A DNA stretch of 39,737 nucleotides, from NCBI GenBank assembly GCA_903879705.1, contig CAIRMO010000042.1:1-39737 (forward strand). Reading direction: 5' to 3'. Every line of letters starts with the position of its first letter. Position 1 is the first letter of the stretch. Below, one piece after another: positions 29,102 through 36,318 of this stretch. A program made the position numbers and the translations under genes. The notes below the pieces were generated by a model, which made no database searches, was not told where the DNA came from, and worked only from the letters and a program-made list of their open reading frames with translations. This DNA is from an uncultured Candidatus Competibacteraceae bacterium. GTDB taxonomy: Bacteria; Pseudomonadota; Gammaproteobacteria; Competibacterales; Competibacteraceae.

Positions 29102-29237
29102 TTGTTGATGGGTGCAATGGAAACAGCGGATTAAAATGAACCTAGAAAGGTGAAAATAGAATGGTGTCCAGTGCTGTAAAGCTTGTGGCTACGATAAATT
29201 TTGATCCAACCCTATATCGTCAATCCGGAGGTGTCTT

Positions 29238-30746
29238 ATGGAACGCCGCTGCTTTCTGAAAATCGCTGCTATTTCTTCCGCTGGCGCGGGCCTGTTGACG
29301 CAGACCCATGAGGTTGTCGCCAAAGGTATTTCCTTCCAGGCGTTTCCTGGCAAGACCCAGGGGCAATGCTACGCGCCTCCCGCCAATCCCGTAATTCTCA
29401 CTTCCCTGACCGATTTATTCAAAATCGGCCCTGGCCCATCCAGTTCCCACACCATCGCGCCGTTGCGGATTTCAAGCAATTTTCGCGAAGCCATTGCTGC
29501 GCTGCCGCCAGAAACGCTGAATAAAGCCCAGTCCATTGAGGCGCATCTGTTTGGCAGTCTGAGTGCTACCGGCAAGGGCCACCGGACTGATCGGGCTATT
29601 CTGGCCGGGTTGTTGGGACAGAAACCGGAGACCTGCGATACCGAGTTGATGGACGCGCTGGCGGATACCCGCAAGCAGTACGTCACTACGATTCAGGGCA
29701 AGACCTTCACGGTCGGTAACGACACGATTGTTTGGGACAAAATCGATCACCCATATCCGTTTGCCAATACTCTGGTGATGCGACTGGTTAGCGTGGATGG
29801 AACAACATTGTTCGAGCGGGAGTATTACTCGCCGGGCGGTGGTTTTTTCCAGTGGAAAGGCCAGCCTGCGCCGGATCGGGGCCAGCCGGTTTATCCCTAC
29901 GGCAACATGGCTGATTTCAGGCGACTGGCGCGGGACCGCAACAGGAGTCTGTCCGAAATCATACTGGATAATGAAAAGGCGGTGATGAAAACCGGGGAGG
30001 CTGAGATTTTCACCCACCTCGATTTGGTGCTAAAGACCATGGAGGATGGCGTCACCCAAGGTCTGAGCGAGGAAGGGCTGTTACCTGGGCCGTTCCCGTT
30101 CTACCGCAAGGCCAAACGGGTTTACGAGAGCGCGCGAAACGCCCCGGCTGGGGACGGTTTTATGACGCAACTGAGCAGCTATGCGTTGGCGGTATCGGAA
30201 GGCAATGCCGCTGGCCGGTTGGCGGTCACCGCGCCTACCCTGGGTTCCGCGGGCACCATGCCGGCGCTGGTTTACTTGATGAAAAATCAGTTGAAACTGT
30301 CGCAGGACGCGCTGCGGCACGGGTTGCTGGCGGCGGGGCTGGTCGGGTTTTTGTGCAAAAACAACGCAAGCGTGGCCGGCGCGGAAGTCGGGTGTCAAGG
30401 CGAAATTGGCGTCGCTTCGGCCATGGCGGCGGCGATGTTGACCCATGCGACCGGCGCGCCGCTGGAGGCGACCGAGATCGCGGCCACCATGGCCCTGGAA
30501 CATCATTTGGGCATGTCTTGTGATCCGGTCGGCGGCTTCGTGTTGATCCCGTGCATTGAGCGCAACGCTTTTGGCGCAATCAAAGCTTACAACGCTCATC
30601 TGCTCGCCAAAAACGAGATTGCTGCGCAGCATTGGGAGGATTTGGATCGAGTGATTCTGGCGATGCTGGAAACTGGCAAAGCCTTGCCTACGCCGTTTAA
30701 GGAAATGGGCACAGGTGGTTTGGGTGTAACCATGGTGGATTGCTGA
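29238..30746 (+). CDS. Iron-sulfur L-serine ammonia-lyase with a Tat-type signal peptide
   Basis: A 502-residue protein homologous to single-chain L-serine dehydratases (SdaA type), which convert L-serine to pyruvate and ammonia. The N-terminus reads MERRCFLK followed by a hydrophobic run to about residue 20, matching the RRxFLK twin-arginine signal. The enzyme proper begins near residue 50 (LTDLFKIGPGPSSSHT, the family start). Cluster cysteines 386, 428 and 439 fit the CX41CX10C spacing, and the last residue is Cys502, as in the Legionella enzyme where the terminal cysteine enters the site. GGAGGTG precedes the ATG. If exported, it would act in the periplasm on D- or L-serine-like substrates; this is inference. 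The unit ends at the hairpin at 30803. Confidence 0.85.
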   Translation: MERRCFLKIAAISSAGAGLLTQTHEVVAKGISFQAFPGKTQGQCYAPPANPVILTSLTDLFKIGPGPSSSHTIAPLRISSNFREAIAALPPETLNKAQSIEAHLFGSLSATGKGHRTDRAILAGLLGQKPETCDTELMDALADTRKQYVTTIQGKTFTVGNDTIVWDKIDHPYPFANTLVMRLVSVDGTTLFEREYYSPGGGFFQWKGQPAPDRGQPVYPYGNMADFRRLARDRNRSLSEIILDNEKAVMKTGEAEIFTHLDLVLKTMEDGVTQGLSEEGLLPGPFPFYRKAKRVYESARNAPAGDGFMTQLSSYALAVSEGNAAGRLAVTAPTLGSAGTMPALVYLMKNQLKLSQDALRHGLLAAGLVGFLCKNNASVAGAEVGCQGEIGVASAMAAAMLTHATGAPLEATEIAATMALEHHLGMSCDPVGGFVLIPCIERNAFGAIKAYNAHLLAKNEIAAQHWEDLDRVILAMLETGKALPTPFKEMGTGGLGVTMVDC

Positions 30747-32515: not shown

Positions 32516-33670
32516 TCACAAGCAATACGTCTTCAATGGAGGAAAGCCATTGAATTCAATGGCGCTGTAAGAAGCGGTATAGGCACCAGTGGAAAGCCAA
32601 TAAATTCGGTCGCCAATTTGCAATGACAACGGCAGTTGATATTTGAAATGTTCATACATAATGTCCATGCTGTCGCAGGTTGGCCCAGCCAAAATGACAT
32701 CACCGGTTTCCCCGGTCTTATCGGTATAGGCCGGGTATTTAATCGATTCTCCCAGCGTTTCCATCAAGCCATTAAAAATACCAACATCGGTATAAACCCA
32801 GCGGTTTAAATCTGGCTTGGATTTTTTTGAAATCAGGACGATTTCACTGACCAATACTCCCGCTTCCCCGACCAGACCACGGCCTGGCTCCAGGTAAATT
32901 TCGGGGATGACATTGCCAAAATGGAAGTCGAGATAACGGTTGATTTCTTCCGCGTACACCGACAGCGGATTGGATTTAACCAGGTAATCTGCCGGAAACC
33001 CGCCGCCCATATTCATCGCTTTCAGATGAATCTGCTTTTTTTCCAGCGACTCGATCAGGTACTTTGCTTGGGCAATTGCTGCATCCCAAGCAGATATTTC
33101 GCGTTGTTGCGATCCAACGTGAAATGAAAGGCCATACGGCTCCAGTCCCAACTCAGTAGCCAGCAACACCAAATCAGTGACCATGCGGGGTTGGCAACCG
33201 AACTTACGCGACAATGGCCAATCGGCATCAGAGGTAATGGCATCCATCAGGATGCGGAAAAACACCCGCGAACCCGGAGCTTCTTTAGCGAGATTGCGAA
33301 TATCGGCCTCGCTGTCGCTGGCAAACAACCGGACGCCTTTTTTATAGGCTTCATGGACATGCCGCGCTTTTTTGATGGTATTGCCGAAACTCAACCGTTC
33401 GGGCGATACCCCCAGTTCAAGTACATCATTCAGTTCATAAATCGAAGCAATATCAAAATAGGAGCCGAGATCCCGCAACAAACTCAATACGGCGAAATCG
33501 GGATTCGCTTTGACTGCATAATAGATTTTCGCCTGAGGAAAACCCGTGCGAAACTCCCAGAATTTTTGCCGAATTTTATCAAGGATTACAACCAGAAATG
33601 GCGTCTCTTTAGTTTTAGAAAAAGCTATGATTTTTTCCCATTCTACGGAGGAATAATAATCACGGTGCAT
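32516..33670 (-). CDS. Type III PLP-dependent decarboxylase, ornithine decarboxylase-like
   Basis: A 384-residue alanine-racemase-fold decarboxylase, probably making putrescine from ornithine. The PLP lysine is Lys54 (YYAVKAN), the phosphate-binding glycines are in MNMGGGFP, EPGRG binds the cofactor and Cys332-Asp333 lie in GPTCDSMDIMYE, the signature of eukaryotic-type ODC. The length is nearer to ODC than to the longer arginine or diaminopimelate decarboxylases. GAGG lies about ten bases before the ATG. A bidirectional hairpin (33730-33768) separates it from the upstream dehydrogenase gene, so it may be transcribed by readthrough or from its own promoter. Lysine as an alternative substrate cannot be excluded. 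Confidence 0.88.
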   Translation of the reverse strand: MHRDYYSSVEWEKIIAFSKTKETPFLVVILDKIRQKFWEFRTGFPQAKIYYAVKANPDFAVLSLLRDLGSYFDIASIYELNDVLELGVSPERLSFGNTIKKARHVHEAYKKGVRLFASDSEADIRNLAKEAPGSRVFFRILMDAITSDADWPLSRKFGCQPRMVTDLVLLATELGLEPYGLSFHVGSQQREISAWDAAIAQAKYLIESLEKKQIHLKAMNMGGGFPADYLVKSNPLSVYAEEINRYLDFHFGNVIPEIYLEPGRGLVGEAGVLVSEIVLISKKSKPDLNRWVYTDVGIFNGLMETLGESIKYPAYTDKTGETGDVILAGPTCDSMDIMYEHFKYQLPLSLQIGDRIYWLSTGAYTASYSAIEFNGFPPLKTYCL

Positions 33671-33788: not shown

Positions 33789-35195
33789 TCACTGCTTCTT
33801 CCGCCCTGCTTTCCCGGATCTTTTCGACTTCTCCTGATGATTGCACTGGCTGGCTTCCATCGACTTAGGCGCTAGGGCAATCATCGGGTTGGCCGCTGAA
33901 ACTGTCACTGTAGCTGTCGATTCCACCAGTTCAGTCTCTAACGCCCTGACTGCACCATTAAATGAATTTTTACCGCCAGGTTCGATTTCCTTAATCTCAG
34001 TCGGCAAGCCGATCTGATCGAGCAGAATGATAAATGGCTCCGGATCTAGTTCTTCAACATTCACCATGGTTTTTGGATCCCAAACGCCTTGAGCAATCAG
34101 CATTGCCGCTGCAACCGGAGGAACTCCAGCGGTATAGCTAATGCCCTGTGACTCGACTTCTTCAAAGCACTTTTTGTGATCAGAAACTTGATAAATCAAC
34201 AGTTCCCGCGCTTGTTCGTCTTTCCAACCCTTGACGAAGTTGCCAATACAGGTTTTACCGGTATAATCGGGCGCAAGCATTTGCGGATCGGGCAATAGCG
34301 CCTTGACGACTTTAAGCGGAACTACCGCTTGCCCGGTAGTTAGCATGACCGGCAGATGCGAAAGAAACCCCAAGGTCCGCAATACCGTGAAGACATTAAT
34401 ATAGTGGTCGCCAAATCCCATCCAGAATCGAATGCTGCTCGCGTCGATATTCTTCGACAGCGAGTGCAACTCGTCATGTCCATTCAGATAAATCGGACAA
34501 GGACCAACCACCGGAAAATCGTAAATACGCTTGACAGAATGGGTTGGGAATTCTTGCCACTGGCGGTCAATCCAAGTCCAGACTTTAATGAATTCACGGA
34601 AATTAATCTCCGGATCAAAGTTGGTAGCGAAATACTTGCCGTGGCTTCCAGCATTCACATCCAGGATGTCGATCGTATCAATCTTGTCGAAATAGCGTTT
34701 AGCCGCCAAGGCGCAATAAGCATTGACCACACCCGGATCAAAGCCCGCGCCAAGAATAGCCGTCAATCCTTTTTCGGCGCAACGATCTTTGCGCTTCCAT
34801 TCATAATTGGCATACCACGGCGGGGTTTCACAGACCTTATCGGGTTCCTCGTGGATAGCGGTGTCGATATACGCGGCTCCGGCTTCCAGACAGGCTTCCA
34901 GCACTGACATATTGATGAAAGCGTTGCCAAGATTAATCACAATTCCGGAATGAGTATCGTTAATCAGCTTAATAGTCGCTGGAATGTCCAGTGCGTCGAT
35001 CTGTCGTGAACAGATCTGGTTAACAGTATCCTTGATATGCCCTTTCCGGTTGATGCTGGCGATAATCTCATCGCACTTTGCCAGGGTCCGCGATGCAATG
35101 CAGATGTCGCCCAAGATGTCGTTATTCATCGCCGCTTTGTGAGCCGCAACATGGGCAACTCCGCCTGCGCCAATGATCAGTACATTCTTTTTCAC
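33789..35195 (-). CDS. Carboxy(nor)spermidine dehydrogenase, saccharopine dehydrogenase family
   Basis: A 468-residue NAD(P)H-dependent enzyme that condenses a diamine with aspartate semialdehyde to carboxy(nor)spermidine. The Rossmann motif IIGAGGVAHVAAHKAA starts at residue 6, and GAGFDPGVVNAYCALA near 165 is typical of this subgroup. The start is GTG at 35195, with AAAGGA eight bases upstream. The C-terminal 55-60 residues are an extension beyond the usual length of about 400-415, low in complexity and ending in a Lys/Arg-rich run (EKSKRSGKAGRKKQ). It is 16 bases after nspC in the same operon. Confidence 0.88.
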   Translation of the reverse strand: MKKNVLIIGAGGVAHVAAHKAAMNNDILGDICIASRTLAKCDEIIASINRKGHIKDTVNQICSRQIDALDIPATIKLINDTHSGIVINLGNAFINMSVLEACLEAGAAYIDTAIHEEPDKVCETPPWYANYEWKRKDRCAEKGLTAILGAGFDPGVVNAYCALAAKRYFDKIDTIDILDVNAGSHGKYFATNFDPEINFREFIKVWTWIDRQWQEFPTHSVKRIYDFPVVGPCPIYLNGHDELHSLSKNIDASSIRFWMGFGDHYINVFTVLRTLGFLSHLPVMLTTGQAVVPLKVVKALLPDPQMLAPDYTGKTCIGNFVKGWKDEQARELLIYQVSDHKKCFEEVESQGISYTAGVPPVAAAMLIAQGVWDPKTMVNVEELDPEPFIILLDQIGLPTEIKEIEPGGKNSFNGAVRALETELVESTATVTVSAANPMIALAPKSMEASQCNHQEKSKRSGKAGRKKQ

Positions 35196-35211: not shown

Positions 35212-36318
35212 TCAAGAAAGGCTGTGTTTAAAGTCTTGGTAGCCGAAAGTTCGGACCATTTCTACGGTTCCGTTCAACCGACGTACCACGATGGCTGGCA
35301 TGGCGATCCCATTAAACCAGTTTTTTTTGACCATTGTGTATCCGGCGACGTCAGCGATGCGAACTTCGCTGCCGATCTCCAACCGGGCGTTCAGGTCATA
35401 TTCGCCAAGGACATCGCCAGCGAGGCAGGTGCGTCCAGCGATCATGATGTGGTGTAATCCGGGTTGGGGAGCAGCAATCCTGGGGGTGGTGTGGTAGATC
35501 AAGTGATCTAGCAGGTGCGCCTCAACCGATGCGTCGATAATAGCAATGTCGATTTCATTGTGAATCACATCCAGCACCGTAGTCACCAGTTCTGCACAGT
35601 TTGTGATCGCCGATTCACCCGGTTCCAGATAAATCTGGACGCTGAATTTTTCGCCGAATTGCTTGAGTTTTTGGCAGAACTGATCGAGTGAATAGCCGTC
35701 CTTAGTGAAGTAAATGCCACCGCCAAAACTGACCCATTCCATTTTTTCCAGTAGGGCGGTATAGCGTTCTCCGATCATATCAATGGCGGCGCAAATGTTA
35801 TCAGCGTCATCATTTTCACAGTTAAAATGGAACATGAGTCCACTCAACAAGGACAAAACTTTGCTGATCTCCTTTTGATCAGAAACGCCCAATCTTGAGT
35901 ATCTCCGTGCTGGATCAGCCAGGTCGAAGTGCGAATAACTGATGCCCGGATTAACTCTCAATCCGAGTTTTATCTCACGAACGTATTGGGAGTAAGCCGT
36001 CAGTTGTGATAGAGAGTTGAAAATCACTTTACTGGCAAATTTCTTGACTTTTTTAATGTCATCTTTTGAAAAACCGACGCTGTAAGCATGAACTTCTTTA
36101 CCAAATTTTTGATATCCTAACTGGGCTTCAAACAACGAACTGCTGGTGGTACCATCAAGATATTTTCGCATCAAATCAAATACACCCCAAGTTGAAAAGC
36201 ATTTCAGTGCCAGCACTGATTTCGCACCAGATGCTTCGCGCACCTGTTGAATAATTTTCAGGTTTATTTCGAGTTTGCTTTCGTCGATTAGGTAATAAGG
36301 TGTGGTCAATTTTTTCAT
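35212..36318 (-). CDS. nspC: Carboxynorspermidine/carboxyspermidine decarboxylase
   Basis: A 368-residue PLP enzyme that decarboxylates carboxyspermidine or carboxynorspermidine to the polyamine. The PLP lysine is Lys39 (LALKCFS). WVSFGGGIYFTKDGY, EPGES and GRTCLAGDVLGEY are NspC hallmarks. The neighbouring dehydrogenase makes its substrate, and the ODC-like gene can supply putrescine, so spermidine is the likelier product here than norspermidine (no diaminopropane synthesis gene is seen). The ribosome site is weak (GGAAA). Confidence 0.9.
   Translation of the reverse strand: MKKLTTPYYLIDESKLEINLKIIQQVREASGAKSVLALKCFSTWGVFDLMRKYLDGTTSSSLFEAQLGYQKFGKEVHAYSVGFSKDDIKKVKKFASKVIFNSLSQLTAYSQYVREIKLGLRVNPGISYSHFDLADPARRYSRLGVSDQKEISKVLSLLSGLMFHFNCENDDADNICAAIDMIGERYTALLEKMEWVSFGGGIYFTKDGYSLDQFCQKLKQFGEKFSVQIYLEPGESAITNCAELVTTVLDVIHNEIDIAIIDASVEAHLLDHLIYHTTPRIAAPQPGLHHIMIAGRTCLAGDVLGEYDLNARLEIGSEVRIADVAGYTMVKKNWFNGIAMPAIVVRRLNGTVEMVRTFGYQDFKHSLS

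Follow-up and report, generated by a model that had tools for sequence, protein, structure and literature searches.

On the forward strand of the stretch of DNA analysed here (39,737 nucleotides from an uncultured Candidatus Competibacteraceae bacterium; hereinafter the window), positions 29238–30746 code for a 502-residue protein which, by its sequence, belongs to the single-chain [4Fe-4S] serine dehydratases and appears to represent a new, exported variant thereof. We posit, with a probability of roughly 0.7, that it acts in the periplasm as a [4Fe-4S] amino-acid lyase exported via Tat, the most likely reaction being the conversion of L-serine to pyruvate and ammonia. A periplasmic serine lyase had been proposed earlier from the window sequence (the original prediction), and the proposal now draws support from the conservation of the signal, the retention of the active site and the presence of genes for predicted extracytoplasmic partners next to the lyase in related genomes. 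Against it stands the general expectation that a labile [4Fe-4S] hydro-lyase would not be found in the periplasm.

The ORF opens with an ATG, which was also the start picked at 29238 by our start-scoring script, and combines the SDH_beta and SDH_alpha domains on one chain (Table 1), with the marker motif of its group, GPGPSSSHT, lying inside SDH_beta at residues 64–72. Against the L-serine ammonia-lyase model TIGR00720 it scores 378.6 bits, the cut-off being 345.1. The GC content is 0.58 for the gene and 0.58 for the window; thus, the composition carries no sign of recent transfer. The cysteines on which the original prediction had relied, namely Cys386, Cys428 and Cys439 with the spacing CX41CX10C along with Cys502, are all in place. 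Likewise, the N-terminal MERRCFLK, the hydrophobic run and the roughly 30 extra residues that it had reported ahead of the catalytic part correspond to an uncharged run at residues 9–23 and a tail at 29–55, with cleavage predicted after Ala28 (VVA/KG, residues 26–30).

Table 1. Positions in the window of the lyase gene features.
Feature	Position	Strand	Basis or remark
GGAGG ribosome-binding site	29227..29231	+	Read from sequence; six bases 5' of ATG
Predicted Tat signal peptide, residues 1-28 (MERRCFLK...VVA)	29238..29321	+	RR.FL motif and uncharged run
Twin-arginine motif RRCFLK, residues 3-8	29244..29261	+	RR 100% pairwise identity, clade A
Mature N-terminal tail, residues 29-55 (27 aa)	29322..29402	+	Not in ordinary serine dehydratases
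SDH_beta domain, residues 56-207	29403..29858	+	Pfam PF03315, 133.8 bits
His115	29580..29582	+	Counterpart of LpLSD His61, matched by hand on phmmer alignment
SDH_alpha domain, residues 235-495	29940..30722	+	Pfam PF03313, 221.4 bits
Cluster ligand Cys386	30393..30395	+	Alignment rows
Cluster ligand Cys428	30519..30521	+	Alignment rows
Cluster ligand Cys439	30552..30554	+	Alignment rows
C-terminal Cys502	30741..30743	+	Counterpart of Legionella Cys458

Both pattern and conservation predict the N-terminus of the window protein to be a Tat signal with an RR motif, a hydrophobic region and a signal peptidase site. We searched for RR.[FGAVML][LITMVF], which we take to be the TatP-type Tat signal pattern, in the first 45 residues, followed by at least 11 uncharged residues. 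Of the 22 signal-bearing rows 21 show this combination, the exception being L137, which matches the pattern and has an uncharged run of 9 residues, as compared to none of the 24 signal-free relatives sharing the GPGP motif and none of the 64 ordinary dehydratases. Among all 424 predicted ORFs of the loci 31 display it, 20 of these being the lyase and 11 other ORFs. Six further copies from one of the lineages described below (clade D) match the RR pattern, which was the sole criterion applied to them, within the first 60 residues. The N-terminus is also long: the window lyase has 66 residues before PSSSH, while the ordinary enzymes (64 read) mostly start 13–14 residues before it. In clade A, the 12-row clade of the window protein, the two arginines are identical in all pairs despite differing Arg codons; pairwise identity is 80% for FLK, 31% for residues 9–27, 88% for the A[KR]GI cleavage region and 70% for the catalytic part. 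An invariant RR followed by a variable stretch and a retained cleavage region is the conservation pattern of a signal peptide. In a seven-row alignment of this clade R3, R4, K8, A28, G30 and I31 are invariant. The mature tail holds a Cys44-Tyr45 pair (window 29367–29372), with the cysteine found in 11 and CY in 10 of the 12 clade A rows. A TatC is encoded in the window genome (229.1 bits) and in total was found in 21 of the 22 signal-bearing hosts tested (of 27 hosts), the search returning none in host G314, a MAG.

Rather than starting near residue 50, the closest homologues share this N-terminus: the six loci recovered by the first search (64–80% identity) align from residue 1 or 3, all begin with M[DNY]RR and all bear the signal. 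Wider searches of selected groups for family members with the same N-terminus brought the count to 28 intact signal-bearing copies, including that of the window, in 27 genomes and four lineages. These are clade A (12 rows including the window; support 100/100), clade B (8 loci, mostly of the WAGFDP type; 100/100), a third lineage in which L139 stands alone apart from a related fragment, L151, and clade D (7 loci with DRR.FLMR...EARAQ; 100/100 for the six placed in the tree). All seven clade D copies resemble one another between DRR and EARAQ. Their starts (L148 and L201–L206), like that of L147, were assigned manually to the ATG preceding the RR motif; for L148 the scoring script preferred an ATG 13 residues before PSSSH. 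All signal-bearing copies fall inside the GPGPSSSHT group, which a 100/100 branch parts from the ordinary enzymes and which also has signal-free members (24 read, including 19 from the G808 class). On the tree the signal trait takes 3 changes under parsimony, yet a single clade of signal-bearing copies gives a p-AU of 0.243, so that one origin is not rejected and we do not claim separate gains of the signal.

The third tree, which holds 24 of the 28 signal-bearing and 21 of the 24 signal-free rows, was the last of three successive trees with 34, 15 and 8 ordinary rows. The ordinary set comprised 65 loci for start calling, of which L045, which had no motif, was dropped to leave the 64 used; for L058, L063 and L069 the called N-terminus was trimmed manually. 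L163–L165 are duplicates of L184, L147 and L185, and the fragments L115/L153, L116/L154, L151, L152 and L155–L157 were left out of the 28. Two of the fragments, each from a different genome, are decayed lyases, though assembly error is possible: L154 (6029–8120) is cut after about 95 residues, directly before a C69 gene, and L153 displays frame changes and truncation. Matches to the lyase were obtained in 99 of 274 genomes sampled from the class, in 199 of 398 from the phylum and in 98 of 199 from another order; as these samples were chosen around matches, the frequencies are not abundances. Among the matches listed, those lacking a signal mostly have about 36–43% identity and start near residue 50. 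We also considered whether a long tblastn match would imply a signal and rejected this: H1, H3 and H5 from the plasmid collection, with matches beginning at residues 3–7, lack a signal and belong to the ordinary GIGP enzymes.

A signal-bearing copy coexists with a signal-free one in at least eight genomes. In G1369, G1504 and G1414 the latter is a GPGP copy and in G808, G889, G775 and G837 an ordinary copy, while G316 has one signal-bearing and two ordinary copies. G1647 codes for two signal-bearing copies (L202 and L203), and the SDH_alpha search of the window genome, G311, G313, G314 and G315 gave the signal-bearing copy only.

The genes lying on the same strand within 1500 bases of the lyase offer a further contextual line of evidence. 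A C69 dipeptidase is found beside the lyase in 8 of the 28 signal-bearing loci (L132, L135, L144–L147, L182 and L183) and a porin in 7 of the 28, all in clade D, whereas neither occurs there in any of the 88 controls (24 signal-free and 64 ordinary), of which 23 of the 24 and 56 of the 64, respectively, have at least 1000 bases on both sides. The resulting contrast (15/28 versus 0/88) has a Fisher p of 1.4e-11 with shared ancestry ignored; since the queries derive from signal-bearing loci and most control flanks extend 1.5 kb, where control genes may be partial, the finding of partners is somewhat favoured in the signal-bearing set. Counted by lineage, the C69 genes occur in two clades, with different gene orders, and the porins in a third. 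The C69 gene lies downstream of the lyase in L132, L135 and L147, whereas the remaining five loci, near-identical members of clade B, have it upstream. In the three C69 proteins scanned (L132, L144 and L147) Pfam PF03577 is over the cut-off, while L132 scores below that of the NCBIfam C69 dipeptidase model; in L132, L135, L145, L146 and L182 the start, examined by eye, resembles a secretion signal ending just before Cys-Thr. The clade D porin is an OprD protein directly downstream of the lyase in 5 of the 7 loci (by Pfam in the two scanned, L148 and L201), with another porin beside the lyase in L202 and L203 (Pfam Porin_4 in L202). The remaining 13 of the 28 loci, the window among them, have neither partner beside the lyase.

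Beyond these, the cluster at L148 (6658–15064) includes a PFL and its activase, both over the cut-off, and an AspT-like exchanger, and 2-oxoacid:ferredoxin oxidoreductase-type genes lie near L136 and L132, where among four subunits scanned only the PorB of L132 is over the cut-off. These pyruvate-using genes near L148, L136 and L132 fit pyruvate as the product. L138 (5721–11294) has on one strand a C45 hydrolase, the lyase, an arginine deiminase-type protein and a CtlX-type citrulline hydrolase. By eye, their N-termini are signal-like in the C45 hydrolase, a hydrophobic segment in the arginine deiminase-type protein and lipoprotein-like in the CtlX-type protein, and the run is possibly a whole exported amino-acid-degrading set. 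Several further associations were observed. AspT-like matches were listed near the lyase in 4 of the 28 loci, one of them a putative match 96 nt from L132. L187 (5110–12426) codes on one strand for a glycyl radical enzyme of the PFL2-3 subfamily, its activase, the Tat lyase and a panF-type sodium symporter, and a formate/nitrite transporter gene is found near L204. Two signal-free GPGP enzymes adjoin an amino-acid permease fused to SBP_bac_3, at L143 (3169–5349; domains scanned) and L149 (5282–7384; by similarity).

In the window itself the lyase is preceded by cco-type genes and followed by a B12-type radical SAM protein and polyamine-type genes; these neighbours are uninformative and lend no support to the exported-lyase reading. 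The nearest relative, L131, shares no neighbour with the window and its surroundings are equally uninformative. Among the window genes there is a carboxynorspermidine synthase-like gene at 33789–35195, below its model cut-off, flanked by a decarboxylase-like gene (32516–33670) and an ORF at 35212–36318.

The active site appears to be that of a working enzyme, as the original prediction had surmised from the cysteines, with the catalytic His and all four cysteines kept. The residue corresponding to His115 is histidine, and the three cluster cysteines are invariant, in all 22 signal-bearing, 24 signal-free and 64 ordinary rows; the C-terminal Cys is present in 22/22, 24/24 and 58/64 of these, respectively, and all four cysteines are in place in the six further clade D copies. 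Superimposed on this conserved frame are substitutions characteristic of clade A, at positions showing little variation in the other rows: R116, directly after the catalytic His, in 11 of 12 rows and in 0/24 signal-free and 0/64 ordinary rows; G322 in 12/12, where E occupies the position in 24/24 signal-free and 62/64 ordinary rows; S427, adjoining the cluster ligand Cys428, in 12/12, with T in all 88 others; L335 in 12/12, with N in all 64 ordinary rows; T417 in place of E in 11/12; and A482 in place of D in 12/12. Their location near catalytic residues tentatively suggests a changed substrate, and as some are beside the catalytic His and a cluster Cys, the assignment of L-serine as substrate is less secure than that of export.

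Accordingly, the strongest competing explanation, which we regard as unlikely while still a real contender, is that the enzyme is exported and that the window clade has shifted from serine to another substrate, such as a negatively charged β-substituted amino acid or a short peptide. The gain of an arginine beside the catalytic His and the loss of a glutamate from a conserved motif (G322), along with S427 and L335, speak for such a shift; against it, the catalytic base and the ligands are unchanged, the score is still above the TIGR00720 cut-off and the pyruvate-using neighbours of some relatives fit a pyruvate product. The closeness of R116 and S427 to catalytic residues is read from the sequence; an AlphaFold2 model from seven rows, with a pLDDT of 57.8, was too low in confidence to place the clade A changes.

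It is improbable that the Tat system reads the segment with no cleavage ensuing, leaving the enzyme tethered to the inner membrane on its periplasmic side. Membrane-anchored Tat proteins exist and the uncharged stretch after the RR could serve as such an anchor, but besides the invariant A28, the -3 position of the seven-row alignment is a small residue (A, V, T or S) in 6 of 7 rows and L in one, and the ARA or WAG-type ends in other clades resemble signal peptidase sites. Still more improbable is a fortuitous extension or wrongly called start on an enzyme that is cytosolic like its relatives. Signal-free relatives indeed start 10–38 residues before PSSSH; yet, the only other in-frame start listed for the window upstream of GPGPSSSHT, a TTG, lacks a ribosome site, as compared to the good site of the ATG, and on this ground we rejected a wrong start codon. 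Moreover, the full conservation of RR with varied codons versus 31% identity for residues 9–27, and the exported partners in relatives, speak against a chance extension. Least probable of all is that the exported protein is now a sensor or scavenger, e.g., of serine or iron, rather than an enzyme: periplasmic oxygen and the C-terminal Cys could conceivably hold it inactive, as against the retention of the catalytic His and the four cysteines across the 22 rows and of those cysteines in clade D's six further copies.

Under the preferred reading of a Tat-exported lyase, the protein would fold and gain its cluster in the cytoplasm and be exported in the folded state by the Tat translocase via a cleavable twin-arginine signal. 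In the periplasm it would act on L-serine, or a close β-hydroxy or β-substituted amino acid, most likely releasing pyruvate and ammonia. The substrate might be supplied by peptides cut by exported peptidases or by entry via outer-membrane porins. Uptake would then deliver the pyruvate to enzymes that cleave it. The C-terminal Cys may cap the open iron and thereby shield the cluster during and after export. We further propose, tentatively and at somewhat below even odds, that in several lineages an extracytoplasmic amino-acid catabolic module is built around the Tat-exported [4Fe-4S] lyase, with a new substrate in the window clade. In this module an outer-membrane porin or an exported Ntn dipeptidase would supply the amino acid, the periplasmic lyase would cut it and only the keto acid and ammonia would reach the cell.

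Thus, as judged from these genes, some bacteria probably rely on a fragile metal-cluster enzyme to degrade amino acids extracytoplasmically. If so, the periplasm can house labile [4Fe-4S] catalysis, the Tat substrates come to include a cofactor enzyme of an unexpected kind, and periplasmic deamination combined with exported peptidases or porins becomes a testable way of using nutrients or releasing ammonia. The plain L-serine ammonia-lyase annotation obtained from the family model hides this exported branch. The ready loss of their open iron is the usual reason for regarding labile [4Fe-4S] hydro-lyases as cytosolic. To our knowledge, no earlier catalytic [4Fe-4S] hydro-lyase is known to work outside the cytoplasm, and the window lyase, if the reading holds, would be the first; among the literature matches listed, none concerns an exported serine dehydratase.

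Sequence searches recovered a single full-length relative of solved structure, LpLSD of Legionella pneumophila (PDB 4RQO; phmmer E 4.6e-86 over lyase residues 56–502), which like the window lyase is a single chain with three cluster cysteines, a C-terminal Cys and a catalytic-base His. PMC12647591 presents His61 of LpLSD as the likely catalytic base and its C-terminal Cys458 as binding the fourth iron. The two differ in that the match begins at residue 56 of the window lyase, leaving the N-terminal part with no counterpart in the alignment, and in that LpLSD has GIGP where the window lyase has GPGP, the latter also bearing the clade A substitutions. Closer are the GPGP-type signal-free dehydratases, which share GPGPSSSHT and the 100/100 branch from the ordinary enzymes; in contrast, the 24 read start 17–38 residues before PSSSH and have neither an RR signal nor a C69 or porin neighbour. 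According to PMC12647591, the L-cysteine desulfidase CyuA is distantly homologous to the family, has three cluster cysteines and uses analogous chemistry. No CyuA or cysteine desulfidase model is among the window matches at E<=1 in Pfam and NCBIfam, and, unlike CyuA, the window lyase keeps the serine-type catalytic His. For export itself, the comparison is with the Wolinella SdhABE, whose hydrophilic subunits are, according to PMC2680327, Tat-exported, unlike those of the earlier characterized members of the superfamily. While this methylmenaquinol:fumarate reductase is a redox complex and not a lyase, it offers a precedent for the principle of export.
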